Assembly: GCA_024741835.1 (NCBI GenBank)
Contig: JAENRP010000125.1
Span: 1,998 to 65,997, forward strand
Direction: 5' to 3'
DNA length: 64,000 nucleotides
From: Diplocarpon mali
Taxonomy: Eukaryota; Ascomycota; Leotiomycetes; Helotiales; Drepanopezizaceae
Part shown: piece by piece, positions 1 through 59,496 of the stretch
Position numbering within the stretch: the stretch's first letter is position 1
Layout: every line of letters starts with the position of its first letter
Made by a program: the position numbers and the translations under genes
Notes under the pieces: model-generated
What the model saw: the letters and a program-made list of their open reading frames with translations, nothing else
What the model was told of the DNA's origin: nothing
Database searches by the model: none

Positions 1-109
1 TTATACTTTTTACCTACGGACTAGGCCCAGGAGTTAGAAAACGAAACTAGTAAAATAAACAAATAAGCTATAGAGTCGTAAAAACAATTAAAAATAGTAT
101 TAACCTAGA

Positions 110-3100
110 TATCAATTTTCTTTAGTTTTCTTTAAAGGATAGGGAGAACTATTACTAGATAATACTCTCTTTATAAAGCGCTTACTTCTTTTTAATAGTT
201 TACTATTAGTATTAGAAGAGTCCGGTCTTAGTATTATAAGAGCTTTAGTATTTTATAAAGATACTATTATAGTTTGATAGCTTCTACTAATAGGAAGGGA
301 GACTTATATTATAATATTATTATTATTATCCTCTTTATTATTATTATTATCCTTTAAAGAGTTATCTACTACTAAAGGGGATACGGTAGGAGATTCTATA
401 GCTACGACTTCCTTAGCCTTGCCTTTCTTTAGATTAAGTCGCAGGCTAGGCCTAGGAGTTGTATCAAGGGTTTTTGCATAAGGCTTTTTAATACTATACT
501 TCTTAAGAAGAATTGTCTCGTTAATCATATTATCAGCCTTAATATTATAGTTAGTGCCTTTCGTCTTAGCCTAGGATTTGTTACTATATAACTATAGTTC
601 CAGTTATTGCATTAGCTTCTAAGTATTAGTAAAATCGTTAAAAAGTTCTTACTTATATTTCTTTAAATATATTATCAATTGTGCTATATCCTTTAAGAAT
701 AACTCCTTTATAACTATTACTACTAATAGGTCATTTTATAATCTTCTACCTATAAGGGCCTTTGATAATAGACCGCCTTTTATCATCCTAAGGGTTATAT
801 AGAACTTTGCAAAAGATTCTCCTACTGCACCCTATCTTACTATACTTAATCTCTTTATACTAAGTGAGTTAATAAGAAAATCTTTTAAGTTAATGCTATT
901 CTTAAGTGAATTATTACTAATAACTTCTATATAATTATTGCTAATAGTTAAAAAACCGCCCTTTTTAGGTTCCTATTCCGAATCGAGATCAATAAATATA
1001 CCTTATCTTATAAATACTGAGAATAGAGTAGTATTATTTAAAACGTATTCTTTTAAAACAATTTTCTCCTTAGTATTCAGCTCTTTTTATTATATAGCGC
1101 TTTACGCTAGATTTAATAAGATCTATTAAGAGCTCTTAAAACAATAGGATATAAGTATAAATGATTTATAAGACTTTTCCTATATAGTAAATTCTTTAGT
1201 TGATTGTTTTATAATAGGAATTATATAATAGTTAATAATTCTATTATTAGAGGAGTTAACCTGCGAGCTAGGCTTAGGAGTTGATTTAATAAATCGCAAG
1301 TTAGCGTCAATCTTAGTAGTAATAATTCTCAAATAGTAATTAATGCCTATAAACTATATAGGCTTAAGATATATTACTAACTTATATAAAGACTTATATT
1401 AAGTTAGCAGAGCACTTAAGTATAATTTATAATGTATCCTTAGTATCTATTATATTAAGCTATAAGTTATATTATAAAGGTAGGCAGAGGGGGGGTTTGG
1501 CTTCTTATCTAAGGTCCAGAAGTGGTATTAGTACATTTCTAGTTCTTCTTATACTAATATTAAAAATGAATTCTTTCTACAATTACTATAACTATACGTA
1601 CGCATAGCGCTTAAAAAGGCGCAGCTAAACAACTTAGGCATATTTAAAAAGCCTTTGCTATAGAATGATATAAAGTTATTAATAGTCAATATAGCGTTAT
1701 ATTAAGCAGGGGTCTATGCGATATTATAGAACAATTTAAAGGCTTTAGGTGCTACTTAGAACTTAGAGAAACCTAACGATATATCTTTCTTAACCTAATT
1801 AGCTATTCTATTACTAGTGGCTATAATTGCATAGTTTCTAAAGTGTAATAAGAACAGTTTTAAATCGAGAGTAGTATAAAATTTATAAATATTAGATAAT
1901 ACCTCTTTATTAATAATGCCTATTAATGCTAGTCTATAGTATAGTGTATATTATCATTTATAGAAGGTATAAAATTTCTCAAAATAAAAGTCTCCAAATA
2001 TCCTTATTACAAATTTACTTAAGCGAGTCTTTATTTCTAGTATTATTATAATTCTAAATCTATTACCATACTGTAGTATTATCTTAATATTAAAGGGGAC
2101 TTGATAATATTCTATAGAAATCATTATTATAGTATCTTTAGGCTTCTCCTTAAGTATATAGTAATCGCCCTTTGATTTCTTATAATCGATAAAGAATTAT
2201 ATAATATTATCTAAGGTGAATTCGTCTTATTACAGTTTCATAATCTATTTAATAGCTCTTACCATTGCCTCTTATACTAATAAAACATCTCCCTAGTTTT
2301 CCTTCTTCAAACGCTTTATTATAGACTTATAGAATTTTAAAATAAACTTTTACAGTTCTTCAGAAAAGGTCTATATAATATTAGATATATCCTTCTTAAT
2401 ATTATTAAAAATTTCTAATACATTAATAATAGGGCTATCTACTTCATCCGTTAGCTTATCTTTTGAATCTATATTATTACGTATTCTAACTTATAGGCCA
2501 GGCCCGCGGGCCAGTTTCTTTACTACTAGTGTATAAGGTGTTTTAGGCATTTCTAAGGATAGTGATTTAAATATATCTAAGTCTAATGCTTTAGGGTTAT
2601 AATAGTTAGCAGTTTGTATTTCTGGTATTATAGGCACCTTATGCTTATAGACTTCTTTATTATATACTAATTCCACTTATAGGCCAGGCCCGCGAGTCAA
2701 ATCGCGCTTATCTATTGATCCTACCGCAGGTAGTAGTAGCTTTAGGGCGGCAGGTATAATAAATTCCTATCTTTCCATTTTGTTATCGAAGTAGTTTATA
2801 GTATATTTAGCTAGATATATTATCTTTTCTTTTATAATAAGTAGACTGCATTATAACTATTGCAGGCCGAGCGTATTTAAAACAGTTTGGTTAAGGAGTA
2901 TAAGATTATCATACTAAGCGGGGCTGTCCTTTATAGCTTAAATAGTAAAGTGTATAATAGTGCTTGAGAATCCAATAAATTTTTTACTCTGCGTACTATT
3001 TCCTTATAACTTCTTTATACCTTCTTAAATAGTGAAATAATTCAATACCTATATAGCTTTGGCCATTGGTTAATATATCTTAAAAATTTTGCCAAGTCCT

Positions 3101-3585
3101 TGCAAAGTATTATTCACAATAATATTATTTATAAAGTAGCTTCGAAAGAGCGTTCTACATATTCTACTTGTAAACTATATCAGTCTTTTAATATACTTAT
3201 TTTTCTTATCTCGGTTCTTTTAAAATAAATCAATCGAATTAGCATACTTCTAATACTTTTATAAAAACTTTTCATAATTAATACCTTTGCCTTAAAGTTC
3301 CTTATCTAAGAAATTATTAAAACCTAAGAATCCTTCCTTAATAGTAGAAATTCTATAGTTAAGCACCTTAATAGATAAATTTAAGAATACCTACTATTCG
3401 GTCTTACTTAATATTCTATAGGTACTTACTATATCTTCTAATAATCTTAATGACTTGCTATCCTATAAGAACCCTCCTTTTAATATTAGTTCATTATTAG
3501 TAGTGCTTAAGGACTTGCTGCCTAAGGTAATAACCGATATATTCTTCTTAGGTATGGCCTTTTTACTTATGGTTAATAGTACTAT
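110..3585 (-). pseudogene. ORF3 of giant Gypsy, copy A (unknown family, RIP-disrupted)
   Basis: I do not recognise this protein. Reading TAA/TAG as former Gln gives one continuous frame of about 1,150 codons, matched along its length by ORF3 of B. The start is placed at an ATA (3585-3583) that would be ATG before RIP; the start is uncertain. The N-terminal 130 residues resemble the N-terminus of ORF2, sharing a pattern S-T-Y, then Q-Q, then F-L-x-K-E-L and K-G-I. The C-terminus has an acidic Asn-rich tract (about 304-380). Four palindromes near 436, 1258, 2488 and 2674 lie within it; in B the matching four are all in one reading phase. No retroviral enzyme motif, signal peptide or clear membrane segment was seen. 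Confidence 0.6.
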
Positions 3586-4069
3586 AATGAATTATTTAGC
3601 AGGGGAGGTAGCTTTAAATAAAGAGATAATTATTTAAAAAAGATTAATAATATAATAGGCTTATACTTGAAAAGATTGATAATAGAAAGATAATAGTAGT
3701 AGTATTAATATTATAGGTCTAATAGAGTTGAAAAGAGAAGTAAAAAAAAGTAAAATCGTAATGTAAAGAAAGGCTTATTTATAAAGTTTGGAGTCGCATT
3801 AGTATACAAAGGAAAAGTAAGCATAAAGAGGCTAGAAGTAGGAACAAAAGTAGGATATAATACATATAAGGACCTATAATTGGTAAATGATAATTCTTTA
3901 AAGGTAAGGATAATATTTCAAAGGTAAGCGTTAGAAAATTGCATATAAAGGAAATAATTAAAGGATAAATCATATAAAGAATAAAGTAGAGTAAAGAATA
4001 TATATAGAATAAAATAATAAATAGAGAATAAAGAGGTACTAGTATATAAGAAGTAGATAATCTTAAAAG
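3586..4069. other. Spacer between ORF2 and ORF3 of copy A
   Basis: AT-rich sequence matching 41456-41932 of copy B. I see no convincing conserved frame and no LTR or polypurine tract. It may hold leader sequence for ORF3. Confidence 0.4.
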
Positions 4070-7000
4070 ATTTAACTCGAATTCGTAAGTCCTTTAAATA
4101 GTCTTCTCTAAGGGTAATAGGCTAGATTCTTTAGATTGCTTAACTTAATTATCAGTTCTATTATTACTTTAGAGTCTTCTTCTCTTATATTAATTCTTAC
4201 CTTTTAGCGTTTTTACTAATTCAAGTGACTAAGGTTTATTTGAACCATCTCGTAGGCTTAAGCCAGCCGAGTCCAACCTCACTCGCAGGCCAGGCTCGCG
4301 AGTCAGTCTTAGCGTTTCTAAGCTTAAGGGTAAAAATAGGAGATTGGTTCCTAAATTAGGGTCTAATACTATACTAGCGTCTTAGTTTGTCTCTTTTCTG
4401 AATTTTCTTATAATAATGCCTTTATCAATTAGTGCATTAGGCTTTTAAATAGCATTTACTTTATTGTATTATCCTTAAGACTTGAGTTTATAAAGAAGCG
4501 ACTTAGTATTTATAATATTCGTCCAGGCCTTAATAAGGGTATTAAAGAGTTTTTAATTATATTCTATAAAGTGGATTTTCAATTTGTCCTTATTAAGAAG
4601 GAATAACTCCTATACTTTAGTTATAATAGAAGGATCTATCTAAGAGCGCCGATTAATAATAGCTTTAAAGAGGCTATTATAGTTCTTAAGATAAAAAGCT
4701 GCCTTAAAAGGTATAGTAGTTCTATTTGCATTAATCTATTAAAGTATTAAAGGTTACTTTAAAGTAAAGACTGAAAAGATAAAATCGGAGATTTAAGTCT
4801 TATTTTCTAAGGTATTCTTATTAAGGACAGCTATATAGTTGTTGCAAAAGGCTATAAAACTACTAGTCTTATAAGAATTGTCCGAAAGCATTTTAAAAAG
4901 GTATCCCTATTTTATTATTACTATAATTAGATTACTATTATTAGTAATAGGTCGCAAGATCTCCTTTCGCTTTAATTTTACAGTTATTTAAGCTAGTTGA
5001 GATTTTAAACTAAGTGCTTAAGAAGTCTATTGACTTATCTTCTTTATAGATAGAATGAGTTTTATAGTCAATTAAGAGCCGACCTACTTATTAAGGCTTT
5101 TAGAAGCTAGCCTTTATCCGATCAGTAGGATCTAATAATCTAAGACTTGCTTTCTAATAAAATTGACTTATAGGCCAGGACTGCGAGTAAAAATCGGAAT
5201 TTCTTTATTAGTAGTACTTATATCTCTCTTTATCGAAACGACTTGATTATAAAGACTAAGGCCAATTAATTAGGGAGGTTTAGGGTAGGCTATAAGCTGA
5301 TAGGTTCCTCTACTTCTTACTATTATAGTTAAGAGGTAGAGTCTATAGTACATTCGAAGGACTTATTAAGTAAGACTAAATATCATATTATAAAGAAAAT
5401 AAAAAGGTATAAAGGTCGCGCTATTTATAAGGCAAAAGTGATAAAGATATATCTTTGCTTCTTATCTTATAATAGAGAGGAATATACTTATAAAAGCACT
5501 ATTATTAATAGTAAAATTATCGGTTAGGAAGCGGCATCCGAAGGGCTTAGGCATTATAATTGACCCTTCTTCCTCTATTTCCTTTTGCTATCTATTGCTT
5601 AATAATATTAATAAAAAGGAATTGTTCCATTCCATCGGCTCTAACGCTTTTAAGGCTTTAAGATTAGCCCTAAATTTTATAGCACTTAGAGATGCCTCTA
5701 TTATTAACTAATTAGATTTGTATATCTTTAAAAAGATAAAGAACTAATTATTAAGGTAAATTAAAAAAAGATCAATATCTTCTACTATATAAAGAAGTTT
5801 AAGGTATTTAATAGTTTTATTAATATTAAATCCTTTATAATTAAGACTATAGTAAACTGAAAGAGAGCGAATATAAAGGTCGTAAAGTCTTTTCCCTTCG
5901 ATTCCTACGCTAGGAAGATACTATCGAAAGCGAGTCTTTATTATAAAGGATACTTAAATATCATATTATTCTTTAAGCTCAAGGTTGAGAATGACCGATT
6001 AAGGCATATTGCTATAATTATAAATGTCTTAATTAATAGATTCCTCTTTGCATTCTCTTTCTCGCAAGATAAAATAATCTTATTCGGCATCCAAGAGACT
6101 AGGTTCTTAACTTTTATAATTATTAAAGAATTGAATAATATCTATAAGGGTAAACTCGTTTAAGATAAGCTATTAAATTTATCTAATAGCTCTCTTAGTC
6201 ATCTTTAGAGCAGTTAGAATAGGGTCTTTCCTTATATTATTATTTTTAAAACAGTTATATATAGATATAAAGAAGTTAAGAACTAGCTCCTTTAAGTTGT
6301 TAAGAAAGGAGTTTAAGTAAGTGCGCAATCCTTTGGTTTTAAATTGCAAATTAGCTAAGGTAGCTATCGAACGATCTATCCTTTTTAAAGGTTAAGCTAA
6401 AATAGGTTATTTAGCTAGAGGAAAGTCCTTTGAAGATTCTGAAAATTCTAAAGAGGCTACGCTAAGCGTTTGGGCAGTTTATTTAGCAGCGGTTTCTAAA
6501 ATCATTTTAATAAGAGGCAGATTAGGTCCAGTTTTAAAATTCTTATTTCTAACTCTTAATCTAGGACCGCAAGTCAAATTATATCGTTTAATACTTATTA
6601 TATCTTTAGGTTAAGAAGCGAATTTCAAAGTAGGCTTGATTATAAATAACCAATTCCCTTCTTTATTATTAAAGAAATCTTATCTAAACCCTAGTATAAG
6701 AGTCCAATTCTCTTTTAAAATAAGCAAACTATAAGCAGAAGCGCAAAGCCTTAGCATATTAATAATAGTACTATTAAGTAGGGTAATATCTATAGCTTAA
6801 TTTGATCTTTTTATAGCCCTATTAGCTGCTATAAGTACTATATTAGATAAGCCTATAAATCTACAATTGCGAATTCGATTGCCTTAGAATTTTGCTACTT
6901 CTTTTTAAATAATAAAGAAATTGAGAATCTAAATAGCTTTAGCTATAGGAGTATTTTCCTTAAGAATTTTTAATAATACTCGCCTTCTATTATTAGAATT

Positions 7001-7420
7001 AATATTTGTTAAGAAGCGCGAACAAAATAGGAGTCCTCTCTTATTAATAGCTAAATTATCTAGTTATTAAATAGATTCTTCCCTTTTATCTTAATCCATT
7101 TTGAAAGTGTTGGCTAAGGTTATATATTAATCTGTATTAGCTAAGAATTCCTCTTTGGAAATTCCCTTTAGTCTTAATTCTTTGGTTAGGAAGTCGTCAA
7201 ATTGGAGAATTCCAAGGGCCACTTGGATTAAAAGGTTATTAATAGCATTTGTATAAGCTAAAAGGAGTTCTTATTGCTTTATATCTCTTAAGGCTACGTA
7301 GGTCGATTTAAAGTTCTTTAATAATATAATAGCTCTACTATCCTAAGATAAGTTTATAATTAGTACTTATTTATCTCCTATTATAGCAGATAAAACCATT
7401 TGTAAGTTCTTTAAAGGCAT
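4070..7420 (-). pseudogene. ORF2 of giant Gypsy, copy A (unknown family, RIP-disrupted)
   Basis: This ORF follows pol on the element's coding strand. It starts at an intact ATG (7420-7418) giving M-P-L-K-N-L. The first 150 residues resemble ORF3: both contain S-T-Y, a Q-Q pair, F-L-x-K-E-L and K-G-I. A second shared block of about 25 residues reads D-E-F followed by I-I-Q-F-F. The best reading frame changes at the position matching about 40,100-40,250 in B, so either two overlapping ORFs exist or both copies inherited a frameshift. Palindromes lie near 4281, 5165 and 6551. No known enzyme motif was found. Many Gln codons are now stops. Confidence 0.58.
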
Positions 7421-7689
7421 ATTGCTTATAAAAGATAGGAAGTATAAATAAGAAAGTTCAATAGGGTATAAGAATTAAAAGGGCATATAAGCTGCAATAG
7501 GTTTGCTATATATATATTAAGGAAATTGGACTTTTTATTTATTATTTAAGGAAAGTAATAGGAATGCTATAATTAAAGGCTAATATTAAAAATGTAAAAT
7601 AAGTTAGAGTAGGCAAGAATTTAAAGTGATCTTAAAAGATCTATATCTTAAATAATAAAGGAGGCGATTTTACTAAAAATGTAAAAATA

Positions 7690-10600
7690 AGGATTAGAGG
7701 AAGGTAGGATAATTGATAGGCTAGGAAATCGTTTAGTATTCCTATCTGCGTTCTTTGGATATTTTAAGAATAATAACTTAAGGTTGCAATTAATTAGGTA
7801 TTTTAATATTCTTTACTTATAGGACTGGCTTATAGGTTAAGTTGGAAAAATCTTAGTCTTTGTCTAAGGGTTTAAAATTGCTTATATTGCTATCGGTTCC
7901 TATAGAAGATTCGAAGGTTATATTAATTTCTAATTCGTCTTTTAAAGGGAATAAGGTCTAGTCGTATTAATAAAAGCGATTTAATCGATTAGCTGCAAAG
8001 GTTCTTTTAATATTAACTCTATTAAGTTCCTAAAGAGAATAGTATCCCTTTTCTTTCTACTCAGACTTAACTTTAAATGGACTAAGCCATTGATAGTTAA
8101 GTTTAGTATTTTAAAAGCAGCCTATGCTTCCTTAGCTTTTTCCCGATATCGTTTCTTTTGCAGAATGATTTCCTTTATATTTATATCTTAAAGCTTAAGT
8201 TGTCAGCATCTTATTATAAGCAAATCGGAACGGTTTTGAATTTGACTATAGTCGAACAATCTCCAAATAGGCTATCGGGATTTAAAAGGAAGCTATGCCT
8301 CTTTACTATAGATAAGGAAAAATAGTATAACTCTAGTTAGTTTATAAATTATCATTCGATAAGCAAAGAGTATTTTATAAAAGTGTTTTATCTAATTTTT
8401 AAATCCTTTATAAGTAACTTTAAATAGCCTATTAAGAATGTTGCGATATCCTTGCTCTACTACTCTATTAGCTTTCGAATTATATACTAAGATTTAAACC
8501 TATTTAATACTATATTTTTATAAAAAAGCTTTAACTACTCCTTTATTTTTAAGGCCCCTATTAATAGTTAGTTTATTAAAAAGTCTATAGCAATAGACTA
8601 TATCTTCTTAAAGGAACTTTGCAATAGATTTAAAGTTAGCAGATTTCAAAAGTTGTCCTTTAGGCCATTCTAATAGGTCTTCCTTTATTAGAATAAAATA
8701 TATAATCCTATTTTCGATTATTAGTACTTATATAATATCGAGACTGACTTTATAAAAAAGGCCTAATAGCCAGGTTGGGAATAGAGGATTCTCTTTACAA
8801 CTAGGTTTTCGTTTCTAATAGGGGATACAACTTTTTATAAAAGCTTTATAGTCTTTAAAAGAACCCTTTTAAAAGAATTTCCTTAAGAGTCGGTAGTAAG
8901 TAGACTTAGCTCTTTAATAGCCAGTTTCCTTATAAATATCCTAGATAGCTTTAGCCCTTAGTTTTTCATTATCTAAGTAAAGTTGTATAAGGTATAAGTT
9001 ATCGCTTCTTTTAAATAATTGTTCTCTTTACATTAGATAAATTAAAGCTTTAGCTTTAAATTTCTAAAAATCCTTAAGAGCAATTGTCTTTAGTTATTTA
9101 AGTATAATTAAAAATTTCGCGATTTCTTTAAAGTCACCTAAGTAGTTAAGTAATAAAATTCTCTTATTTGACTCGCAGGCTAGGACTAGGAGTCGAGTCC
9201 CTTTAAGGCAATATATTGATAGATAACTAACTTCGTTCTCTATCCACTTATCAATATCTGTTTTATCTTTTTTAATTAAATTAAAGGGATAAGGGCGAGT
9301 TCTTTTTAAAAGGCTATTTGTAATAGTATTTTTCATTCTTAGAATATATTTGACTTTAAAGTCTATTAGTCTTATCTAAGCAATCCATTTTATTAGCAAG
9401 GCTTTAGGTAGGTCGCTTGCAGCTTTATTCAATTATTCTACTAGCACTTTAGCATCGGTTTCGAGGATGAAATAAGTACTATAAAGGTTGCTTCTTATCT
9501 TTTTCATTACTTTTAAAGCTCCTTTGCATTCTTATTTAATAGCCTTATACTTTATCTCTATTAGATTCTAAAGACTACTTTTAAAGCAAGCTAGATGTCT
9601 TTTCTATTAGCTATTAGCTTATTAAAGGATAGCACCCTATCTGATTAAGCTTATATCAACTATTAGTATAATTAGCCTAGCGTCGGCTCTATAGTCTATT
9701 TTGATTAGATATAGTACTTTAAGCAATACTTGTTTTAATTATTTTATAGCATTTATTTAGGGTTCCTCCTATTGAAACTTAGCCCCTTTCTAAAATAAGG
9801 CGTAAATAGGTACTGCCTTTTTAGTAAAATCTTTAATTTAAATGCGATAGTATACTATAATGCTAATAAACGCGCGGGCTTCTACTATATTATTATACCT
9901 CTTCTATTTATCGATTTTAAGTACTTTAGCCCTTTAAGGACTTCGGCTATTAGAATCAGTAATAAAACTAATAATTTCCATTGATAGAAGATAGTATTAT
10001 AACTTTGGACTAACTATTGCTCTTGCCCTTTCGAATTGTATAAGCACTTAGTCTAGGTTCTAAATATATTCTATTATAAATCATTATATACTAAGGAGAA
10101 CTTCTTTATAATTATAAAATGATCTTAATCCTTTTACTCTTATATTATCTATATAAAGGAGTATAATATTAAGTATATAATCTACTAATATCTTATAGAT
10201 TACTTAAATAAATTAAGCAATCGAATTTATAGCCTCTTAAGGTAATCTTATTATCTAAAGTAGCTTAAGAGAGGTTTAAATTGCTATTATATCTTTTAAT
10301 TTAATATTAAGAATAAATTGGTTATATTTAAAGAAGAAGTTAATAAGAGAGCTATAGGTTAATCTTACGAATTCATTTAAGAACTTATCTATATTTAAAG
10401 GAATATTAGCGTCTTTAATAGTTACTCGGTTCATCTCTACTACTACTATTATTAGTTTATAAGTTCCTTTCTCTTTCTTAGCAATTAGGAACTATTTATT
10501 CTTATAAGGGCTATTATAAAACTTAAGAATACTTTGCTTTAGCCTATCCTTTAATATTTCGATTACCTTTTCCTAAAGAGCTTTAGGGACCTCGAATGTT

Positions 10601-11900
10601 TTCTTTTATTAGGCTTTATAAGGTATTATCTTAATCTTAATATAAGGCGTAACCTCTTTTCGAATCTGGCTAAGTTCTATTTAATTAAAAGCTAAGGCGT
10701 CCTTTCGATTTATTAAGGTTTTATAAAGTAGTTTGCATTCTTACTCTATTAAGTCTTCTCTAATTTTCAATATATCGAAACGTTCTTTTATTAGCTGATA
10801 TTCGATAGGTTTATTAGAAAATTTACTTATAATAAACTTATCAAATTTGCTACTTAGCTTTAAAGGTCGAAGCTTCTTATCTTATTTAAACCAATCATCT
10901 AGTCCTTTAGGCTTTAAGCTATTAGAGATTCCCTAATCTATCGATTATACTTTATCGGCCTTACTTTTATATATAGTTTGAATATTAGCTAATACTATAC
11001 TTCTCTACTTCTTTCCTTTTTTATTAAATCCTATAAAATAGTCCGAAATTTCCTTTTTAAAAATAAATAAAAGATTTTCTAAGTTATTAATTTAAAGTGT
11101 ATAAATAGAAATATTATTAGTAATTTTATTATTTTTCACTTATAGGTCTGGCTTATAAGTGGTTTTTAGGTTTTTTAAAATGATTAGTAAATTATTGAAA
11201 TTTATAAAATAAACCTTCTTCTTTGCCTTATTTTTCTTTTTTCTTAATTATTATTCTAATAAAATGCCAATTATACTATTTTTTAAAATTCCAGATTTAA
11301 CTCTTAGTTTAAGACCGCAAGTTAAATCTCTATTATTTAAAATTAGCAAACTCACCTTTCTTTTACTATAACTCCTTGCTAAGTGCCTTCCTTTACTAGT
11401 ATTAAGCCTAGCCCTTATACTAGCTAATCGTTTTTTAAAACCTTATTTTAAAATTCGGCTATATCTTTTATAATAACTATTTATTCTTCTAAAGATCGAT
11501 CTATATTCTAAAGACTAGCTTTTATAAGACTATTTCTAAGATAGTTAAATATTAGCTAAGATTTTAAAATAAAGGGCATTTTTAAAAGAATATCGTTTAA
11601 AGAATTCTCTATTATTAGAAAGTTAGTATAATTAACGATTCCTCCGACTTTAACCTTTACGTTTTTCACTTATCTATTAAAATTGTATTTCAATCTAAAG
11701 ATAGTCGAATAAATAAGGAGTCGATTGCTAACGATTATCACTCGAGCTATTTCCGCCACTTTTCTAGTTATTATATTAACTTTTAAACTATAATTAATCA
11801 AAGCCTTTACTTTAATTAATTCTTCTATTAAATAAATAATAATAGGGCTTTTTATTATAACTGCTAAATAATTTCAGTTAATATTCTAAGATATTAAAGC
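7690..11900 (-). pseudogene. Gypsy pol of copy A: protease, RT, RNase H, integrase
   Basis: Order on the minus strand is protease, RT, RNase H, integrase, which is the Ty3/Gypsy order. The protease active-site segment (about 11808-11778) reads A-L-I-N-Y-S-L-K-V-N, explained by G-to-A changes of an ancestral D-C-G motif (Asp to Asn, Cys to Tyr, Gly to Ser, Glu to Lys). The RT box near 10130-10170 reads Y-I-D-N instead of Y-I-D-D. The RNase H end (9094-9336) is a rare stop-free stretch that contains an in-frame palindrome near 9170. Integrase follows to about 7690. The same domains in B confirm the assignment. Inactive. Confidence 0.8.
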
Positions 11901-22124: not shown

Positions 22125-22193
22125 TACCCCTTAGTTAGGCGATGCTCCCAGAATCGCTCAGCTATATAGATAAAACAAAAGAAAGAATAGCAA

Positions 22194-44889: not shown

Positions 44890-45137
44890 TATAAAGACTT
44901 AGAAGTAAAGGATCTTATAATATAGGTCATATAGTTAGATAAGGATTAAGAAAGGGGTATATATAGGACTACTATTATACTTAAAGATAGCGCGTAATAC
45001 TAACTACCTATTCTACCCTTAACTAGTGAATTGTCCTAGTTCTTATCTTTGAAGAGCCCGCTTATAGTGCTTCCTCCCTCTTGTCTTTGGTCTTTACGTA
45101 GGCCTATTCTCAGGTGTTGTTCCTGCTCCCTCTTATA
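44890..45137 (+). repeat. 3' LTR of element C
   Basis: 248 bp partner of 42204-42451. Starts tataaagact against tatagagacc in the partner. Followed by TSD ttaa. Confidence 0.93.
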
Positions 45138-45747
45138 TTAAGAATAAGCTTAAGATAAAAGGGATCGATTATGAAAAATTTCTATAGGAATATTAAAGGT
45201 ATGCTAATTTAATAGATTTGTTTTAGAAAAATCGAGATAAGAAGAATGAGTATATAAAAAGATTATTATAGTTTATAAGTGGCATCTATAGTATACTTTT
45301 CCAGACCTACTTTATAATTGATATTACTACTAATAACGCCCTGCGGGGGCTTGGTAAAATCTTTAAAATATATTAACCTATAGCAAAGGCTATATAGGTA
45401 TTAAATTATTTCACTATCTAAGAGGGTATAAAAAAGCTATAGGGAAATAGCATTAGAGGTAGAAAATTTATTAGGTTCTTAAGCACTATTATACACTCTA
45501 TCATTTAGATTATAAAAGATGAACTCTTATAGTATAATAATTTTGCACTTACTAATTAAACTGTTTTAAATACACTTAGCCTTTAATAGTCGCAATATAG
45601 TCTACTTATTATAAAAGTAAAGATGACTTATCTCGCTAAGTATACTATGAATTACTTCGATAATAAGATAGAGAGATAGGAGTTTATTATCCCTATTACC
45701 TTAAAAATGCTACTACTTTTAATAGGAATAACTAATAAGGAGAATTT

Positions 45748-45774
45748 GACTCGTAGGCCTAGCCTATAAGTAGA
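45748..45774. repeat. Palindromic repeat 1 in B ORF3
   Basis: Counterpart of 2674 in A. Preferred phase (T-R-R-P-S-L-Q-V). Confidence 0.8.
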
Positions 45775-45933: not shown

Positions 45934-45959
45934 GACTCGCGGGCCTAGCCTATAGGTTA
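45934..45959. repeat. Palindromic repeat 2 in B ORF3
   Basis: Counterpart of 2488 in A. Preferred phase (T-R-G-P-S-L-Q-V), 186 bp after repeat 1. Confidence 0.8.
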
Positions 45960-47163: not shown

Positions 47164-47189
47164 GACTCCTAGGCCTGGCTCGCGGGTTA
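47164..47189. repeat. Palindromic repeat 3 in B ORF3
   Basis: Counterpart of 1258 in A. Preferred phase (T-P-R-P-G-S-R-V), 1,230 bp after repeat 2. Confidence 0.8.
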
Positions 47190-47984: not shown

Positions 47985-48011
47985 CGACTCCTAGGCCCGG
48001 CTTACGACTTG
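47985..48011. repeat. Palindromic repeat 4 in B ORF3
   Basis: Counterpart of 436 in A. Preferred phase (T-P-R-P-G-L-R-L), 822 bp after repeat 3. Confidence 0.8.
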
Positions 48012-48333: not shown

Positions 48334-48645
48334 ATACCTAGGTTGGTTCTATTTTGATTGTTTTTGCAATTCTATAGCCTGTTTATTTATTTTAATAGTT
48401 TCGTTTTCTAACTCCTAGGCCCGGCCTATAGGTGAAAAAGCGTATTAAAAAAAAAAAAAAAAAAACCTCTTCTTTTTTTTCTTTTACCTTTAATAATAAT
48501 ATAGCCTTAGTTTAGGCCTTTTAATATATTAGTTTTCTCGCACTTAGGGTTTGCTAGTAATTGATATGCTATTACCTTAACTTATATTATTTTATATTCT
48601 TTACTAATAGTAGTAAGGGCTACTACTTTTGTTATTTAGGATATA
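48334..48645 (+). other. 3' non-coding region of Gypsy B
   Basis: Between ORF3 and the 3' LTR. Holds a palindrome at 48410-48434, a run of about 19 A residues starting near 48446 and a following T-rich run. The short purine-containing stretch before 48646 would be the polypurine tract but is weak. The matching region of A includes its palindrome near position 12. Confidence 0.5.
48410..48434. repeat. Palindromic repeat in B 3' non-coding region
   Basis: Counterpart of position 12 in A. Downstream of the presumed ORF3 stop. Confidence 0.75.
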
Positions 48646-48890
48646 TATAGAGACTTAAGATAGATAGGTCTTATAATATATATTATATAATCGGCGCAGG
48701 ATAGTAGGAGGATAAAAGGGCCATCTTCTGTATATAGAGACAGCGCGCAGTGCCATAGTACTAAATACACCTTATACTTAGGACTTATTCCCAATATCTT
48801 GTCTAGGAGAGCCTGCTTATGGTGCTTCCTCCTCTTGTTTTTAGGTCTTCCCTTAGGCCTATTCTTGTGTTGTCTCCCTTCTGTTTTATA
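48646..48890 (+). repeat. 3' LTR of Gypsy B
   Basis: 245 bp, partner of 22194-22438, followed by TSD gcaa. Confidence 0.93.
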
Positions 48891-48894
48891 GCAA

Positions 48895-50270
48895 TTGTAA
48901 AGAAAAGAGGCTCTATCTTATATACCGCCCCTTTAAAGGTCGTTCCTTCTAGAACGAGAAGGGTTGCTATAGGCAATAAGCGTTCTTAAGAATCTTCGCG
49001 ATTCTATACTAGTGCTCTATTAGGCTTCTTATAAAGTATTTCTATTATAAAGGTTCTCCTTTCCTTCTTTTAAAAACAACCCTCCTTTATTATTCAAAAT
49101 ATTATCTTTATATTAATAATTTTTAAATATAAAAGGAACTCCCGCTTATTATAGCCTTAGCCGCCCTTGCAAAGTAAGACCCTTAGAGTCCCTATACCCT
49201 ATATTGTACTGACTTTGCGCTAGGTTGCTAGCGCTCCTTAAAGAGTAGGAACCCTATCCTAATCGTCCTAGCGCTTGCTAGGCAATAAGCCGCCGCTGCT
49301 ATTCCTACTGCCCCTGCTGCCGCTGCTACTGCCGCTGCCACTTAAGAGCCCTGCCCTTACTGCGCATTGTATATTAAAGCCTACGATAGAATATAATAAC
49401 GCATATATATGCTATATTATATATAAAAGTACTAGCAATCTCGATTATTAATACTTTAATAGTACCTTTAGTACGTATTACGTCTATTATACTATACTAA
49501 GCAACGGCTGCTAATAGGCTAGCGGCCCTCTCCTTACCTCTTAAAAGGCTATTATATCAGCCTATACCTATAGTACCTTTAAAGAAGAGGTAGCGCTACT
49601 ATTTAATATAGTAAAGGGTACGCTTTAGAGCTTTTATAATATGTTTTATTAAATCTTATTAAGTTTTAAGCTAATTTTAAAAGATAGGAGCGATTAAACC
49701 TTAGTGCTAAGAGGGCCTGCTACTCTTATAAGTAGTAGTGCCGCTGCCTCTCCTACTCCTAGTATCCTATTTGCGTTTGCTTTTAGCCTATCCTCCACTG
49801 CCCTATTCCCTTTGCTTACTGCCGCTGCCACTCTTATCCCCTTTGCCTTTACCATTATAGCTGCTACTATAGTCTCTCCCTTTATCTCCCTAGCCCTTGC
49901 CTTTACCGCGCCTATCCTCGCCTTTGCCGCCCTTGCCCTTACCGCCCTTATCGCCGCACCCCTTACTATCGCCCTTGCTATTGCTAGTATATTTGTTAAT
50001 AGGCCTTTATTTAAGAGAGTACTAGTAGGCCTCTCTTAAGAGGAGATCTGTGCAGAGCTTATAGCTATAGCGTCTTAGCTCTTAGCCTTAGCTAAGAGAA
50101 TCTAAGAGAGGGTCGCGCCTTATAATAGCAGCTTAAGAATATTACCTATTCTATATTTTTAAAAAAGGAGAAGCTTTTATAATACGCTTTATAAGAGAAA
50201 ACAAATAAATGTAATTATAAGAGAGTAGGAGCTTATAAGTATAAGTCTCTTAATAATAAGTAACTACTTT
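48895..50270 (-). other. Long 3' region of Copia E2 with GC-rich low-complexity stretches
   Basis: Lies between RNase H and the 3' LTR of E2 on the minus strand. Two islands are GC-rich and little affected by RIP: 49,270-49,345 (repeats of gctgcc-like units) and 49,700-50,000 (repeats of gcc-ctt-like units). Because stops are rare, several frames are open on both strands. On the minus strand one is Gly/Lys-rich and one Ala/Arg-rich; the plus-strand frame 49704-50039 is Ala/Leu-rich. I do not call a gene. Confidence 0.45.
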
Positions 50271-53200
50271 AGTAATAAGTGCAAGTTGCTAAACGATTAT
50301 TTAAAAGCTCTAAAGGTTTAATAAATAAATAAAGCTCTTAAACTTCTAATAGTCTAGGTTCTTAATAAGCCTATTTGCATATATCTCTTTAATAAGGAGG
50401 TAGATTATTTAAAAGCTTCCTCTTTAATACTCTTAGCAGATCTATATATTACTGATTTCGATATATCAAAGGCTTATTTTAATCTTCTTATTCTTTATAA
50501 TAATTAGCCGAATTGTCTATTAGTTATTATAATATATATTCCATTTAAAGAGGGAGTCTATGCGAATCTTCTTAAAAAGGCGTTTTATAACTATTATCTC
50601 CTTTATAATAGAAACTATACTATAGAGTTCTACTTTAGTAAAAGAGAGCGTAATAGTCGCTTAGCAATTCGCTTTTTAAATAATCGGTCCTTTAAATAAG
50701 AAGAAGATATATTCATAAGAGGATCTATAAGTCTCTCGGTCATCTTTAAAAGAAGTATCTAAAGATGCAATCAATTGGTATTCCTTAGCCTTAAAGCTAT
50801 AAGCAATTCCTAAAAAGTATATACTATATAGGTATTAAAGCGTTTAATCTATAGCTAAGAGGTGCTTAAAGCTTAGATTAATTAAAAAGAAAGATAGTTA
50901 GAAGGCTATAAACGCAATATCCAGGCGTATTATAATTGCTATATAGAGAATAGAGCCTATTTTCTCTTAATACTCCTTTACCTTTTCTAAAGAAGCTTAC
51001 CTTAAGTTCTTAATAAACTCCTTCTTTAGTAGTAGAGTATTAAGTACTCTTCTTATATTAGCTTTAAACTTTTAAGCGATCTTCTTAATATAAGTATTAT
51101 AAACTAAAGAGATCCTCTTTACCTTCTTATCTTAAATAATCCTTACTTTAAAGAACTAGGAGATATCTCTTATAATAATAAGCTTATATGCCCTCTTTAG
51201 GTCTTTAATCAGACGAGTCGCCTAATCTAGGTTAAAGGCCTTATATAATACTTGAATATTATTAATATAAAACGCTATAAAGACTATACGATCCTTTATT
51301 ATAAAAATATAAGGCTCCTTGCCTAATAGCTTAAGTTAAAGGCCCTTAAGCATTCTTGCGAAGTTCTTATACTATAGTATTAGAAAGTCTTTTAGCCTAT
51401 AAAGTACGCGGTCTAGTTCTACTATTATACTAAGGCGCTTAAAGCCATCTAATAGGAAGCATATAATTAAAGCACTCCTTAGGTCTTTAAAAGCGTTAAT
51501 AAATGCGTTAATAATATCAAACTGCTTTACTTCTATATTAAAGTATATAGCAAGCGCTATTAATACCTTAAAAGACCTTGCTATAAGCGTAGCTGCGTAG
51601 GTTAAGAAAATTAAAGCTTTATCTTAAAGATCCCTTTATATAATTAGCTATAATCAGCACTTTAAAAGCTCGCTAGAGCTATTGACCTTATAAGTAAAAA
51701 CCTATTTTAATAGTATTAGTAAGGACTTTGAGTAGTCCCTTTATACAATTCTTTAATAACTTTAAGATTTTAAATTCCTAATCTCCTAGCGCCCTCTTTC
51801 TTTCATTCGTTCGCTAAAAGGGTACTTCTTTAAGTCTAGCTATCCTTTCGAAGGCTTTAATAGAAAGCCTTAGTACTATAGGCAGTTAAGAGATTGCGCT
51901 CTATCCTTTGCCTAACTATCAATTGTAGCTTTAATAATTATATAAACTATTAAATAGTCCTTCCTATCCTCTCTTATTTATTCATTCACTTAAAAGGTTA
52001 ATATAAACTCTTATATATATAAGAAGTAAGGTAAATTAATATTACTTTAAAAGAGTATATATTCTAAAGTAGTAGTATATACTTTTAAAGTCTCCTATTA
52101 CTTAACGCTTAAGCGTCTTATCCTCTTTTGCTTAAAAAGAGGGAGTTCCTCTTTACGCTTTTCTTTATAAGTCTGCTCTTTTATTTTTATTATTATTAAA
52201 GGTTCCTTTAAGAGTCTAGATAGCTCTATCTCTTAAGCCTATAGTCTTTAAGCTAGTATTATAACTTAAGGTATTATATTATTAAGGCCTGCTCCTCTTA
52301 TTAAGTTTCTTTTTATAAGACTATTAAAGCTCCTCCTAGATCTTAATAGTAGTACCTCTAGCCTTTTACTAAAGTTTATTAAGGCCTGCCTTTATAATTA
52401 AAGACTCTATTTTAAAGCCCTTAAGCCATTTCTATTCTTATATAGAATAGTAGCTAAAGATCTGCCGATCGCCTTATAGAACTTATCTTTAAAGATTCCT
52501 TTAGAATTATCTATAATTCCTTCTTTAATAGGGCCTTTATAAGGAATTATTACCCTTAAGCTTTAGTTGCCATTTGCCTTTTTAAAGATTGGCAAAGTGG
52601 CTTCTAATTTGCTTACTTCTACCCTTAAGTTTTTAAGCAGGTCTTTTAAAGAATTTAGATTTAAGTTAAGGCCTTTTATATTATTAGTTAAAGGCTATAG
52701 AGCAGCGTCGGTCTATAATATAGGCTCTTCTTATATAGTGGCTTCTTTTGCGGCGATTGCATTTAGCCTTGTAATAAGCTCTAATTCTTCGAAAATGCCT
52801 TTAAACTTAGCGTCTTAAGCTCTCTTTCCCTTTCTAATTAATTAGAGGGTTATCTTAAGTTCCTAGCGTAATATAGGGTTTACGCGCTTAGCTTTTGGAC
52901 TATAGAAGAGAGACTTATTAAATTCGATATTATAAGTTGTTATTACTTATTAGAGTATAAGAACTTAGATTTTATAAATATTAAAGGTAATATATCTAAT
53001 TAAGTAACTTAAGTGCCTTCCTTTATAGTTCAATTTTAAAGGTTCGGCAGTCCCTCCTTGCCTCCCTCTTTCTAATTAAAAGGTATGCGCAAGTGCTATA
53101 TATATAAATGCGACTTTAGTTAAGCTTTAAGCTTACTATCATTTGCTTAATAAGCAGCGGCTTATAGAATTAAAAATACTACTTAAGCTAATTATAAAAA

Positions 53201-53652
53201 GCCTTACTTAATAAGATTATCTTCTTCCTAGTAAGTAGGGAGATATTATAAAGGTATATAGTAGCCTCTATAACCTTTAGCCAAAGGCTTATTAAAAGCC
53301 TAGTATAGATCTTTATTTTAATAAAGCGTTTAATTAACTCTCTTCTTATTCGCTTTGCGCCTTTATTAGGTTAGTATATATAAGTAGGAGTAAGCTCTAA
53401 ATCGATTCCTTCCTCTTTTACTTATCTTTAGTACTTTATAAAAGAGTCTTCCTTTAAAGAGATTACTAAAGTATTATTATCTTATCTAATCTTATAAATA
53501 AAAAGCCTATATTAGCGTTTTACTTATGCTTTAAAGGCCTAAAGGACCTTTATAATTATATTTCTACCCTTCGATCTTAATAGGAACGTCTAAAGTATAC
53601 TACTATACTTGTCCTTAATTAAAAGAACTTATAAGCAACTATTATACAAGTT
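50271..53652 (-). pseudogene. Copia pol of E2, second part: integrase core, RT, RNase H
   Basis: Minus strand. The integrase core resumes at 53652 with L-Y-N-S-C-L-Q-V-L-L, then A-Q-V-K-R-Q-Y near 53,500, a Q-D-N segment near 53,480 and L-T-P-T-Y-T-Y, N-K-G-A-K-R-I near 53,370. The RT region about 52,000-51,200 includes L-D-R-A-L-Y and the catalytic box near 51241-51280, read as F-Y-I-N-N. RNase H ends near 50290 with A-D-R-L-I-K-N-L. The linker before RT (about 52,300-53,000) is long; the plus-strand frame 52567-52818 is its antisense shadow. RIP stops throughout. Confidence 0.82.
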
Positions 53653-54247: not shown

Positions 54248-57200
54248 ATAGCAATAGCTTCTGATTCCGATCGAAATACTAGGCCTAAAGACCTTTAACC
54301 CTCTTAAAAGAATTGGCAATAATAGTTCGACGATTTAGAGCTTTACTTTAAGAGCAAAGGCATCGAAATAGCGATTTAAAAGACACTTATTAAATACGCA
54401 AGAATAGCCTCCTATACTCCCTCTACTGATTCGTCTACTTCCACTTTAATAGCTAATACAACTGCTAAGGATTTGCCAAATATATTAAATAAGCTTAGCT
54501 TAAGAGCTTTAGTAGATAATAACCAAGAATCCTAAAGGCAGATTTTGAATATAGAAAAGGAGAAGGAGTATAGGCTAGCCTTAGCCAAATGTAAGCTTAA
54601 GATTAATAGAGGTTTAAGCGATAAAGATCGAGATTTTATTTAAGTTTATAATAATACAAAGATAAGATAGGATACTTTAAAGGTAAAATACTCTTAAACA
54701 ACTGCCCTTAATACCTAGCATCTACTATAGTAAATCACTTCATTTTAATATAAAAAAGATAAAGATAGTAAGGATATAAATATAAATATAGACTTTGCCT
54801 AGTCTATACTATATGAAGCAAGAAGGAGAGTAAGAGCTATAGATCCTAGGATAGCTATAACTTTTAGGGAAACTTAGCTTTTTAGTTTCCTACTTAATAG
54901 CCTCTCTCTTAAGTTTGCTATTATAAAATAATCTCTTCTTATCTAACCTAACCTTAAGATTTATAAGAAGATCGACCTCCTTCGAACTATTAAGCAAGAC
55001 CTCAAAGGATACTCTAAATTAGCAAACGCCGCATTATAAGGCAACAATAAGCCTAAGAAGAGGAAGGAGCGTAGGACAAGCCCTTAAGCTTATTAGGGAT
55101 GCTACTTCTATAATAGTACTTATAATATTACTAATTGTAAAGTTAGAAGGCAATTGATTAATATAGTTGCTAGCTTTAATATTAAAAAGCAATTGAAGCA
55201 GAAGTTAAAAAGCAAACTGCCTTTATCTTGCCAAAGGCCGCAATTACTAAGGAAAGGCAAAGGAAAAGGCTATTTAGCTAAAACTTTAATAGATACCTTT
55301 AATAATAATAGTAGGTTATTTAAACTTAAATCCACTTTTGATAATTCAAATGATAATTATAATAAAGATGCCTATATCTTAAAAGCCGATCTTTATAAGA
55401 TCCTTGAATCCGATTGGTATAGTAATACTAATTATATAGCATATATGACTAATAAACCCTACCTATTTAAAGGCCTACTTATTAAAATAAAAAGGCGCTC
55501 TATTAAGGTTAGTAGTAGAAGGTTATATGCGGATTCAATAGGTATAATAGAGATGAATATCGCTAGCCTTTTTTTCCTTTTGCAAAATGTTCTCCTTATA
55601 CTTAACTTAAGTATTAATCTTTTATCTAATTATAAGATCTATATAAAGTTGAATTATATAAGAGTTTTTAATAATTAATTTATATAGTTTATAAATAATA
55701 ACTATAAAGTAATCTTTAAAGTTAAAATCAAAGATAGACTTTATATTATCTTAAAGGTAATATTATAGAAATTAACTCCTAGGCCAGACTTATAAGTGGA
55801 TTCCTTTAAGGAAAGTATACTCTCTGCCTTAATACAATTGAGTAAGGATAAAGAGAATAGATAGACTTTTAAGCTAGGACTATAGGTAGATTATAAAGTA
55901 TCCTTAAAGATGACTCTTAAGCTGGGATTATAAGTGAATTTAATAGAAATAACTCTTAGGCTAGGATTGCAAGTGGATTTTGCAAATTCGCTAATAACGA
56001 TTCTTAGGCTAGGATTGTAAGTAAAATTCGTAGAAATGACTCTTAGGCTAGGACCGCAAGTAGATCTTGCTATTTCTAGGAAATCGACTCTTAAGCTAAG
56101 ACTGTAAGTAGATCTTGCGGTTTTATTAAAAACAACTCCTAAGCTAGGCTTGCAATTGGAAAATAGTAAAACCTTAAACTGCTATTACTAGTCCTTTCCA
56201 GCTGCTAATAATAAAGTATCGATTAACAATAGGCTATTAAAGCTATTAGAAGCCGAAAGCCTATTAAGGTATTAGTTAATATATAAAAGATTCGCATATC
56301 TAAAGCTAAAGAAATTAAAGGGCCTGCATAAGGTCTCGACTTTAAAATGGAAGATCTAAGTATTAAAGGATCGCTTAGTATGCCGAATTTGCAAGCTAAT
56401 AAAACTTCAAAATCGGACGCAAACTAAGCTTAGTTTATAGAAAGATTCAATACTAGTGCTAATATCTATTAATACTACTAGACTATTTATAACTTTGATT
56501 AAAGGAAATAATTGGTTTTCTTAAATAGTAAATAACTCCACTTAGCAAATATAGACCATTTGCGCTAGAACTAAATCTAAGCTTATAAAAAAGCTGGAAA
56601 CTTAAAAAGTAATAGAGGAATACTAGACCTAGTTAAAGCTAATAACTATTAAGTCTAATAATATATTAAAGATTAAGGCAAAGCTTAATAAATAGGTAAA
56701 ATAAGGAATTTATTATAAATTAACTATAATATATAAAGGTTCCTATTAGAATAGTATCGCTAAGCGAAGCATTTAGCAAGCAGAGATTGACTATTGCGCT
56801 TTACTATAAGATGCTAACCTGCTATTAGAATTCTAGGACCTTGCGGTTAAGGCAGACGTATACTTGCGAAATAGAATAGGTAGTAGACTAATAGTTAATA
56901 GCACTTAAATATCGCCATATAAGGCATATTTCGGATAGAAACTAAGCCTAGACTATATCTGCGTCTTTAAAAGCGTCTGCTATTCTTATATTAGCCTAAA
57001 GTCCTAGCCCGCGGGTATAAAAAGTAAAAAGCTAATAGACTAAGGTAGAGAATATATATTTATTAGGTATATTAAATAGATAATAAAGTAATAAATAGTA
57101 TATACGCTAGATCTAAGGCAAGTAATTACATCCTTAGTAGTTGAGTTTAATAAAGCTTAAAATAGAAGGGAGCTATCCTTAAAGCTCTATATACCTAAAG

Positions 57201-59263
57201 ATTCGCAAAGTATACTACTCGATAGTAATACTATTAAATCGAACTAATAACCCCTTTCTCTTAGCTTAGGCATATTAAGCGCATCTGCTGATCGACGACC
57301 TACTAGTCGCCTAAAGGCCGAATAGACCATTCCTATCGTCCGCGAACTGCCTAAAGTATAAAACAACTTCGATATTATTATTCCTTTAATTAAAGCACTT
57401 AAGGTAAAGGATATTTCTAAAATAGGTATAAGTAATAATAAGCCTCTACTACTAGAAAGCAATTCCTTAGATAATAAGCCTATAGAACCCATAGCCGAAC
57501 CTATATCTTTAAAGAGGAATAGAGACCTAGAACTAAAAGATACCTTAGATAAACGCGAGTCTAAGCGTATCTAAGCTATAATAGCATATAGGATCTATAA
57601 GCTTGAACTTTAATAGAGCTTCGATAAAGATAATACATTTTTAATTACTAAGAGGATAATGAAAATCTCTCTTTTAAAGACGTATAATAAAGCTATTAAT
57701 AATCTAAAGAATAGAGCAGTATAGAGTGAAGTAATCTAAGAGGAGATAAGCTCTCTTACTGCAAATGGCATATAGATAAAGGAACTAACGCTAAAGGATA
57801 TGAACCTAGTATTAATAAAGTAGGTCTTTATAATTAAGATATATGCAGATAGGACCCTAGAATATTATAAAGTAAGGCTTATAGCTAAGGGCTTCTTCTA
57901 ATAGTATGGAAAAGACTACTTCAATACGTTTGCGCCGATAGTTTGTATAGATACCCTTTGTATATTTATAGTAATAGTAGCTGCTAAGGACCTTAAATAT
58001 AGATAGTATAATATTAAAAATGCATTTACTAAAGTGATTATAAAGGAACGGATTTTTCTCTCCTAACCTGACGGTATTCCTATACGCGCTAGCCACTCTC
58101 TTTATATACTCTATAGTATTTATAAGCTTAAATAATCAGCTTATAATTAGAACCTTTTATATAGTTCTACTCTAATAGAAATAGGATTCGTTTAAAGCCT
58201 AGCTAACCCTTATCTATTTACCTATACTAAGCGTAGAATCAAGTTGCTACTATATATCGACGATATTGCTATAATTATAAAGATAACCACTTAATTGGAT
58301 TGGTTCTTTATAACAATTCGAAAACGTTTTAATACTAAAGATCTAAAGGGAATTTATAAGATCCTTAGCATCTGCGTTATAAGGAACCGCTTTACTTAAG
58401 AACTCTAGTTAGACTAAGAGTAGTATATTAAGAAGATCCTAGATCAAATAAGACTCTTTACTTATGCTTCCAACTTTAAGCCAAAGCGTACTCTAATTAA
58501 AGGAAAGTATAATAAGTTAAAGCCTATTAATAAAAATAAGTAGAGAGGAGATCTGAAGAAGTACTAATAGGATATTAGAGCAATTATATATACTATAGTA
58601 TATATAAGATTAGATATCGCCTTTATTACTAGGCAACTTAGTCAAAACCTAAAGGATCCGACGATTTAATATAAGAATTCAATTAAGCGACTTAGAAGAT
58701 ACCTTTGATTAATAATTATATAAAAGGTAAGATATAGACTAATAAAATATATAAGTGCAAAGCTTAAGGTATATACCGATTCTAACTAGGCAAATATAAA
58801 AGGTTGGAAAAGTATATCTAAAAGCATATTAGTACTATATAGTAGACCTATATTATAAGGAAGTAGGAAATAGAAATCAGTAGCTACTATAAGCACTAAG
58901 GCAGAATATATATTAATATTATCAAATTGCAAGTAAGGATTATAGATCGCTTAAGTTCTGAAAGATATAGGTTTCGCTAAGTATATTAAATAAGATAGGA
59001 ACTATATTAATCTTTAAGTAGATAATATAAGGGCGATTGCACTTATAAAGAATCTATACTTATATAAGCGATTGAAATATATCGATATTGCCTACTACTT
59101 TATCTGCGACCTTATTATAAAGAATAAGTTATCAATCACCTATATCCCAACCGATCGAATAGTAGTAGATGGATTTATAAAGCTACTAAAGACGGTTGCA
59201 AAGTTCGAAGCGTTTAAAGATATACTAAGGTTATAGAAGACAGTAGGGGCTTAGCAGGCTTAA
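54248..59263 (+). pseudogene. Copia gag-pol polyprotein of D2 (RIP-disrupted, single frame)
   Basis: A single frame of about 1,670 codons with Gln stops. The start is set at ATA 54248 (probably ATG before RIP). Gag about 54,250-55,150; zinc knuckle about 55,096-55,150 (G-C-Y-F-Y, then N-C-K). Protease near 55,410-55,450 reads N-T-N where a D-T-G is expected, then Y-M-T-N. The stop-free segment 55154-55678 spans knuckle to protease. The palindrome array follows (55774-56159). Pre-integrase about 56,236-56,400 (R-L-V-C-R-I-C-K). Integrase to about 57,000 and beyond. RT about 57,790-58,500 with intact Y-I-D-D near 58250-58270. RNase H about 58,770-59,200. Confidence 0.87.
55774..56159 (+). repeat. 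In-frame array of eight palindromic repeats in D2 gag-pol
   Basis: The repeats begin (ACT position) at 55775, 55865, 55913, 55952, 56000, 56039, 56087 and 56135. Spacings are 90, 48, 39, 48, 39, 48 and 48, all multiples of three. Each reads in the same phase as variants of T-L-R-L-G-L-Q-V-D, with short variable linkers. The array lies between protease and the pre-integrase zinc region, where a Copia polyprotein normally has only a short linker. Confidence 0.88.
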
Positions 59264-59496
59264 GGATAACTCCTAGGCCCAGACCGCGAGTCAAGTTACA
59301 TAGTCTTATAAAGGAACGCTTTTGGAAATTTGACTCCTAGTCCTACCTTATAAGTAGGATTAGTGATTTTAATAAAGGTTACTATTAATTGATTATTTTT
59401 TTTAATTTAAAGAGATACCTAAGAGTTGGATTAGCGCAAAAGGATAGTTGTTGTTTTCCTAATTGCAGGTCAATTAGAGTAAGGTTTAAGTAGAGG
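59264..59496 (+). other. 3' non-coding region of D2 with two palindromes
   Basis: Palindromes at 59269 and 59333, then an AT-rich stretch with a T run near 59395 and a purine tract (agtagagg, 59489-59496) directly before the LTR, a good polypurine tract candidate. Confidence 0.6.

Follow-up and report, generated by a model that had tools for sequence, protein, structure and literature searches.

Rickettsia palindromic elements are bacterial repeats of ~150 bp reported in metabolic genes (PMC10969869), and yeast mitochondrial GC clusters (GC42) are short GC-rich palindromes that were proposed to be mobile, with RNA-mediated spread suspected; they are reported to differ in presence and absence and to duplicate an AG target (PMC4478555). 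The double-hairpin elements of Allomyces are short mitochondrial palindromes scattered in one genome and proposed to be mobile (PMC7218506), and the GalEa Copia elements of fungi have one hairpin site next to the 5' long terminal repeat (LTR), with a 9-bp palindrome and no usual primer-binding site (PMC5445492). Here we analyzed a 64,000-bp stretch of DNA (the window; contig C125, positions 1998-65997) from a Diplocarpon-like fungus, in which an imperfect palindrome of 23 bp recurs in retrotransposons. As the original prediction for this DNA had stated, the palindrome is common to two superfamilies, Gypsy and Copia. With slightly better than even confidence, we regard it as a dispersed DNA-level palindromic repeat that was passed between LTR retrotransposon sequences.

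The palindrome resembles Rickettsia palindromic elements in that it is a many-copy palindromic repeat, lies in frame in unrelated proteins, and encodes a conserved peptide. The proteins concerned are Gypsy Pol and Copia Gag-Pol, that is, retroelement proteins, with stops in the frames except in P0014 (Diplocarpon coronariae PZA11_002196), which is the best protein relative of the Copia element D2 of the window and on whose basis the host was taken as D. coronariae or a close relative. It differs from the bacterial elements in its fungal host, its location in retrotransposons and partly outside clear frames, its tandem amplification, and its size of 23-35 bp: instead of ~150 bp, there is a sharp core of 23 bp with preferences reaching to ~35 bp. 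The analogy with these elements, proposed earlier, was a fair lead as to an in-frame palindromic repeat common to Gypsy and Copia, whereas insertion as a discrete mobile unit was not shown (no empty site for the two site families tried, weak duplications, and no compensating changes between the arms). Like GC clusters and double-hairpin elements, the palindrome is short and dispersed through one genome; unlike the mitochondrial GC clusters, its copies lie on very many contigs, of up to 560 kb, inside LTR retrotransposons, and no empty site was found for the two families tried. GalEa likewise has a palindrome in a fungal Copia, but at a single site, whereas the present copies are dispersed and often in frame. 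Miniature inverted-repeat transposable elements (MITEs) are many-copy small inverted-repeat units with terminal repeats and a target-site duplication. The palindrome shares with them small inverted-repeat units in many copies, but it is far shorter and has no consistent fixed-length duplication (4/27 sites). Rickettsia palindromic elements and yeast mitochondrial GC clusters are nearest in behavior, with membership in each failing or open. No description of this repeat was found in the open-access PMC literature searched, and the available main text of three D. coronariae genome papers (PMC11527701, PMC7864672, PMC12158172) contains no word starting with 'palindrom'.

Abundance and form of the palindrome

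The genome mixes AT-rich blocks of ~30% GC with blocks of ~50% GC, and the window is crowded with decayed LTR retrotransposons that have many stops in their frames. An inverted pair at 7-15165 and 22193-48438 corresponds to two Gypsy copies of ~15 kb each (Gypsy A and Gypsy B), the latter split by elements E (25630-33648) and C (42203-45140), each flanked by direct repeats. A two-arm scan of the window gave 56 places at ≥13/20 letters, 42 of them with a center of exactly 1 nt. A 23-mer scan tolerating repeat-induced point mutation (RIP), which is a premise taken from the original prediction and from base composition, detected 46 copies at ≥15/18, of which 25 reached ≥17/18; each of 10 block shuffles gave 0-2. 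With segment limits of our own choice, based on repeat comparison within the window, Gypsy A had 14 copies, Gypsy B 15, C 4, Copia D1 2, Copia D2 10, and E one weak copy. Both the predicted total (~46) and the predicted distribution (14, 14, 4, 3, and 11, with none in E) were thus essentially right. All but one of the 46 copies fell within the 41.6 kb of elements named in the original prediction, the other 22.4 kb holding one weak copy, and the 23-mer scan found none in window positions 17471-22190, 48451-53550, and 59401-64000.

Genome-wide pattern searches (49.4 Mb, 676 contigs) agreed with the excess over shuffles in the window: the RIP-tolerant form at ≤2 mismatches matched 11653 places, and its reversed control 88. 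At ≤2 mismatches ACTCNNAGGCCNGGCCTNNGAGT matched 2320 places, and at ≤1 mismatch the GGGCC form matched 291, with 0 in both reversed controls. The exact 23-mer pattern occurred at 315 places in this genome, compared with one IMG/VR stretch and three contigs of a prokaryote collection; these four outside matches lay in sequence of GC 0.54-0.70 with flanks unlike those here, and the three from the prokaryote collection included no Rickettsia record, although no Rickettsia palindromic element sequence was compared. Eighteen 10-kb regions picked irrespective of matches were split into 2-kb pieces. DNA of GC <0.40 (28 kb) held 18 copies, 11 of them strong, and DNA of GC ≥0.46 (126 kb) held no strong and two weak copies, compared with 0 and 2.0 in shuffles. 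With regard to host genes, the high-GC sample of 126 kb, itself without gene annotation, had no strong copy. The earlier statement that the motif is not genome-wide background agrees with this sample and with the single weak copy in the remaining 22.4 kb of the window.

The core, ACTCnYRGGCCnGGCCYRnGAGT, is an odd near-palindrome with a free central base and sharp ACTC...GAGT edges. We characterized it on 27 hand-picked representatives from 25 position clusters. These were two singles and all but one of the 24 recurrent clusters, with three representatives taken from the largest; tandem neighbors among them are non-independent. Five core positions (5, 6, 12, 18, and 19) were unused by the scan; conservation in the remaining columns is partly due to site selection by those columns. 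Position 6 was Y and position 18 was R in 27/27, position 12 at the dyad center varied among all four bases (A5 C9 G5 T8), position 5 was mixed, and position 19 was C in 23/27. Positions 5 and 19 were unpaired in 21/27, so that most copies are imperfect palindromes; many have one C-type and one G-type arm at these positions and therefore have an orientation. Beyond the core, flank position -2 was Y and +2 was R in 27/27, and the adjoining columns showed the same mirrored bias, which extends the biased columns to ~35 bp. The palindrome of 24-26 bp predicted earlier was therefore present, but with a 23-bp core and mostly imperfect. The AGGCC form fits the RIP change TGGGCC to TAGGCC, and copies with GGGCC arms, that is, without RIP change, exist.

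Positions within elements and encoded peptides

In the loci examined, 148 sites fell into 36 position clusters, 24 of which had ≥2 members, across Gypsy and Copia elements. Besides the Gypsy family of ~15 kb, the hosts included two or more Copia families and elements left unassigned; the sites were at fixed places and on either strand. They occupy linkers between protein domains and also positions after the pol match. In the usual phase the palindrome reads T-P-G-P-G-P-R-V, and an inverted copy reads T-R-G-P-G-P-G-V. Judged from stop counts, by our reading, 15/24 recurrent clusters were in phase 0, two in another phase, and seven unclear. The earlier description 'in coding regions' holds for copies that are often in frame in Gypsy and Copia, but it is too narrow for some copies that follow the pol match and have no clear frame.

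The Gypsy element carries ~14 copies. One of them (9171/36193) falls into the interval from the RNase H match to the integrase H2C2 match and is read in another frame, which the homologue P0001 fixes. In Copia, P0014 contains eight T-x-x-P-x-x-x-V/L units (TPGPDPRV, TPEPGSRV, TPGPGPRV, etc.) at the place of the D2 array; no comparable array is present there in four other, distant Copia proteins. A protein search with the array region of P0014 gave P0014 itself as the sole match. In elements of the D2/P0014 type, two or three further copies follow once the pol match has ended. In this genome, each of the 57 P0014-type matches listed had internal stops.

At another Copia locus (L030), a single stop-containing frame has TREPGPGV and TRGPGPGV between a zinc-knuckle-like stretch (by our reading) and DTGAS, and TPGPGPRV beyond the integrase-region match. 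Both orientations thus occur within one frame. By our reading, no palindrome lies near the WHRRLGH stretch of L030, and the P0014 array sits just upstream of that place. Copies of the L028 type lie past the end of the pol match, within T-rich repeats and without a clear frame. T-rich tandem-like repeats (ctattataaggtgattttttt and variants) were seen between the pol match end and the palindrome in L028 (upstream of 1501), L025, L027, L029, and L040-L043. From their matching spacing (C21:8756 / 5361; C94:36431 / 39794), L030 and L028 appear to be parts of one family. A further element, of unassigned superfamily, carries an array in which a 45-bp unit is present once to at least four times (L026, L020:3754, L011:6667). 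Among twenty exact matches, picked by us non-randomly, 18 shared flanks with the retroelement or array sites found before; the remaining two (L059, L061) matched only the flank of L020:17.

Copy number changes locally. The array comprised 7, 8, 8, 7, 6, and 8 units in L031-L036 and three in L037, and aligned copies differed by units of 39, 45, 48, and 61 bp; L011 had two units compared with one in L020 and L026, and a 61-bp unit is present in the 17344 copy and missing from the 59269 copy. Among the 57 P0014-type matches listed, for which 47 of 1116 candidates were scored, frame lengths mostly differed by sums of 13 and 16 aa. At L060 (C443:29450-29552), the left flank resembles the L030 linker downstream of the integrase (two indels) and the right flank is that of the L028 tail, with the switch at the palindrome.

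Spread of the palindrome and competing explanations

Arms paired in 78% of cells as written, compared with 20-41% when slid, which follows from site choice. Folded as 35-mers, four of five hand-picked copies gave -12.5 to -18.5 kcal/mol (z -2.1 to -4.7), and the fifth gave -6.3 kcal/mol (z 0.5), no better than shuffles. In 140 aligned pairs, the scanned arm positions had a mismatch of 0.147 and the two flanks 0.161 and 0.172; the mismatch was 0.227 at unscanned arm positions and 0.286 at the center. Transversions were 0.011 in the scanned arms versus 0.030 and 0.034 in the flanks, with the caveat that sites were chosen by pattern. The earlier claim that the arms are better conserved than their neighbors was not upheld, since the values are close and the unscanned arm positions were higher.

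Several results weigh against transfer of the palindrome between retroelements. The palindrome was ungapped in 830 of the 857 covering alignments, and by our reading all 19 alignments with gaps ≥8 were at tandem sites. Exact empty-site patterns for two site families had no match in the fungus's own genome, and direct repeats of ≥5 bp flanked 4/27 sites versus 1.4 expected, with no consistent duplication. The L060 junction occurred exactly at one place, with six others at 2 mismatches; lying 645 bp from a contig end, it may be a misjoin of the assembly or a true junction left by a deletion, through either recombination or template switching. There was no arm covariation, the score being reached in 182/500 shuffles, and the flanks paired site by site no better than shuffled ones (-2/+2: 11 vs 14.9 expected). 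The phase bias (15/24 in phase 0) suggests that the peptide matters too, and five copies, three of them strong, lay in DNA of GC 0.40-0.46 (26 kb). The ungapped alignments, together with the 820 of 857 in which the partner position was a scanned site (37 in which it was not), indicate that the sites are old within families. Classical transposition with target duplication has weak indications only (4/27 vs 1.4). A selection-maintained hairpin was rejected for now, as the arms do not covary beyond shuffles and change about as fast as the flanks. It seems that the founding sequence already had the complementarity, which selection on pairing does not appear to have kept, and the mirrored flanks reflect a shared preference, not an exact extra stem.

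In the mechanism that we propose, a 23-bp imperfect palindrome would have dispersed among LTR retrotransposons of this Diplocarpon-like fungus, with copies retained in interdomain linkers, mostly as T-P-G-P-G-P-R-V or the inverted T-R-G-P-G-P-G-V. They would be tolerated where they add a harmless linker peptide and also kept in probably non-coding tails after pol, and several would then have multiplied locally as tandem units. The palindrome would presumably have spread from one retroelement sequence to another. As the most probable route, reverse transcriptase would have switched templates at this GC-rich sequence, or copies would have recombined ectopically; either would account for copies staying within retroelements. 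The concentration in retroelements favors, by inference, such an RNA/cDNA route (template switching) or recombination among dispersed copies. Because no clean empty site was found and the arms do not covary, we only infer mobility and hairpin function. A bolder version, which we consider possible and rather doubtful, is that the palindrome is a hyperparasitic 'hitch-hiker' of 23-35 bp that multiplies because its hairpin causes reverse transcriptase to switch between Gypsy and Copia RNAs packaged together, leaves an in-frame T-P-G-P-G-P-R-V tag, and spreads among the retroelements of the cell without entering host genes.

A competing explanation is at the peptide level: a Pro/Gly-rich flexible linker, T-P-G-P-G-P-R-V, is selected in Gag-Pol, unequal crossing over and gene conversion multiply it, and the palindrome is a by-product of codons. 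Phase 0 in 15/24 recurrent clusters (our reading), the eight units kept in intact P0014, the sites within linkers, and a tail copy open in phase 0 in one short stretch (L040) are consistent with this, and pure DNA drift is insufficient in view of the phase bias. However, some copies past the pol match have no clear frame, the 9171 site uses another frame, inverted copies occur inside one frame, and the mirrored preferences extend beyond the eight-residue unit. Moreover, positions 6, 12, and 18 are third codon positions in phase 0, yet positions 6 and 18 are Y and R in 27/27 and position 12 varies among all four bases. Inverted copies, copies outside clear frames, the second frame, mirrored flanks, and the free center together make codon selection alone insufficient, and we consider the peptide-level explanation unlikely. 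Somewhat less likely still is a dyad-symmetric binding site for a dimeric protein of the host or element, or an RNA signal, repeatedly gained and kept because it is useful to retrotransposons. The odd dyad with a free center, the mirrored flanks, and the lack of arm covariation are what a dimer site would show, and the hairpins of -12.5 to -18.5 kcal/mol in four of five copies also speak for this idea; but arms change about as fast as flanks within families, each element has many copies at unlike positions, only one weak copy lies in 22.4 kb of the window, and one of the five copies did not surpass its shuffles in folding. In the regions sampled, low-GC DNA contains nearly all copies, as would be the case if the motif arose by chance or from the composition of AT-rich DNA mutated by RIP. 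This explanation was ruled out for practical purposes, with a negligible probability, by the reversed control (88 vs 11653), the shuffles (0-2 vs 46), and the GGGCC forms without RIP change; a similar array in the intact D. coronariae protein P0014 also argues against it.

Copies along the window and their significance

Unless stated otherwise, the window copies were located by the scan. Gypsy A has palindromes at its left end (12-34) and at 437-459, where a minus-strand open stretch reads TPRPSLRL (frame reading), followed by 1259-1281, 2489-2511, 2675-2697, 4281-4303 (G type in both arms), 5166-5188, and 6552-6574. The palindrome at 7815-7837 lies directly past the end of the P0001 match by protein alignment, and that at 9171-9193, in the RNase H / integrase H2C2 interval of pol, reads in the non-usual frame GTRLLVLACES according to P0001. 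Upstream of the P0001 match, by scan and protein alignment, are 11138-11160 and 11300-11322, and at 11300-11322 the complementarity continues into both flanks. Those at 13216-13238 and 14225-14247 lie upstream of pol (gag region by position) and are common to A, B, and C, 14225-14247 being of a non-usual frame class by stop counts. P0001 (a jgi protein of 1138 aa) is Gypsy Pol-like, with 37% identity over 99% of the 701-aa Gypsy A query. In the ~15-kb Gypsy family, the pol match spans ~7.9-11 kb, and several kb on each side carry many palindromes.

Gypsy B has copies at 23114-23136, 24122-24144, 24775-24797, 34064-34086, 34226-34248, 36193-36215 (the same site as 9171, by scan and protein alignment), 37628-37650, 38891-38913, 40276-40298, 41161-41183, 45749-45771, 45935-45957, 47165-47187, 47987-48009, and, at its end, 48411-48433. 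Element C has 43166-43188, 44150-44172 (an open stretch reads TCSPSLRV by frame reading), 44582-44604, and 44706-44728. The nested element E, with 297-bp terminal repeats, has no strong palindrome though it is inside the palindrome-rich Gypsy B; its weak match at 27298-27320 is at chance level. At the end of Copia D1, two palindromes (17344 and 17405) form a 61-bp tandem at 17344-17427. The Copia D2 stretch at 54254-57163 (plus strand) is 61% identical to P0014 by protein alignment and contains eight palindromes, partly in 39/48-bp tandem, at 55775-56157 (plus strand) at the place of the P0014 peptide array, starting at 55775, 55865, 55913, 55952, 56000, 56039, 56087, and 56135. Two more (59269 and 59333; 59269-59355) follow right after the end of the P0015 match and are probably non-coding. 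Pfam searches with stops read as X found RNase H in both Gypsy copies, integrase H2C2 in Gypsy A, and RVT_2 together with an SH3 match below the cut-off in Copia D2; nothing was matched in five of the nine window stretches searched.

In the literature searched, the cases found of in-frame short palindromic repeats are bacterial, and the cases of dispersed GC palindromes mitochondrial. Concentration of ~11,600 copies in the LTR retrotransposons of both Gypsy and Copia would suggest sequence transfer between unrelated retroelements. Junctions like that of L060 and differences in array length make template switching versus recombination testable by sequencing, and the palindrome sites are a natural record of where retroelement proteins tolerate insertions.

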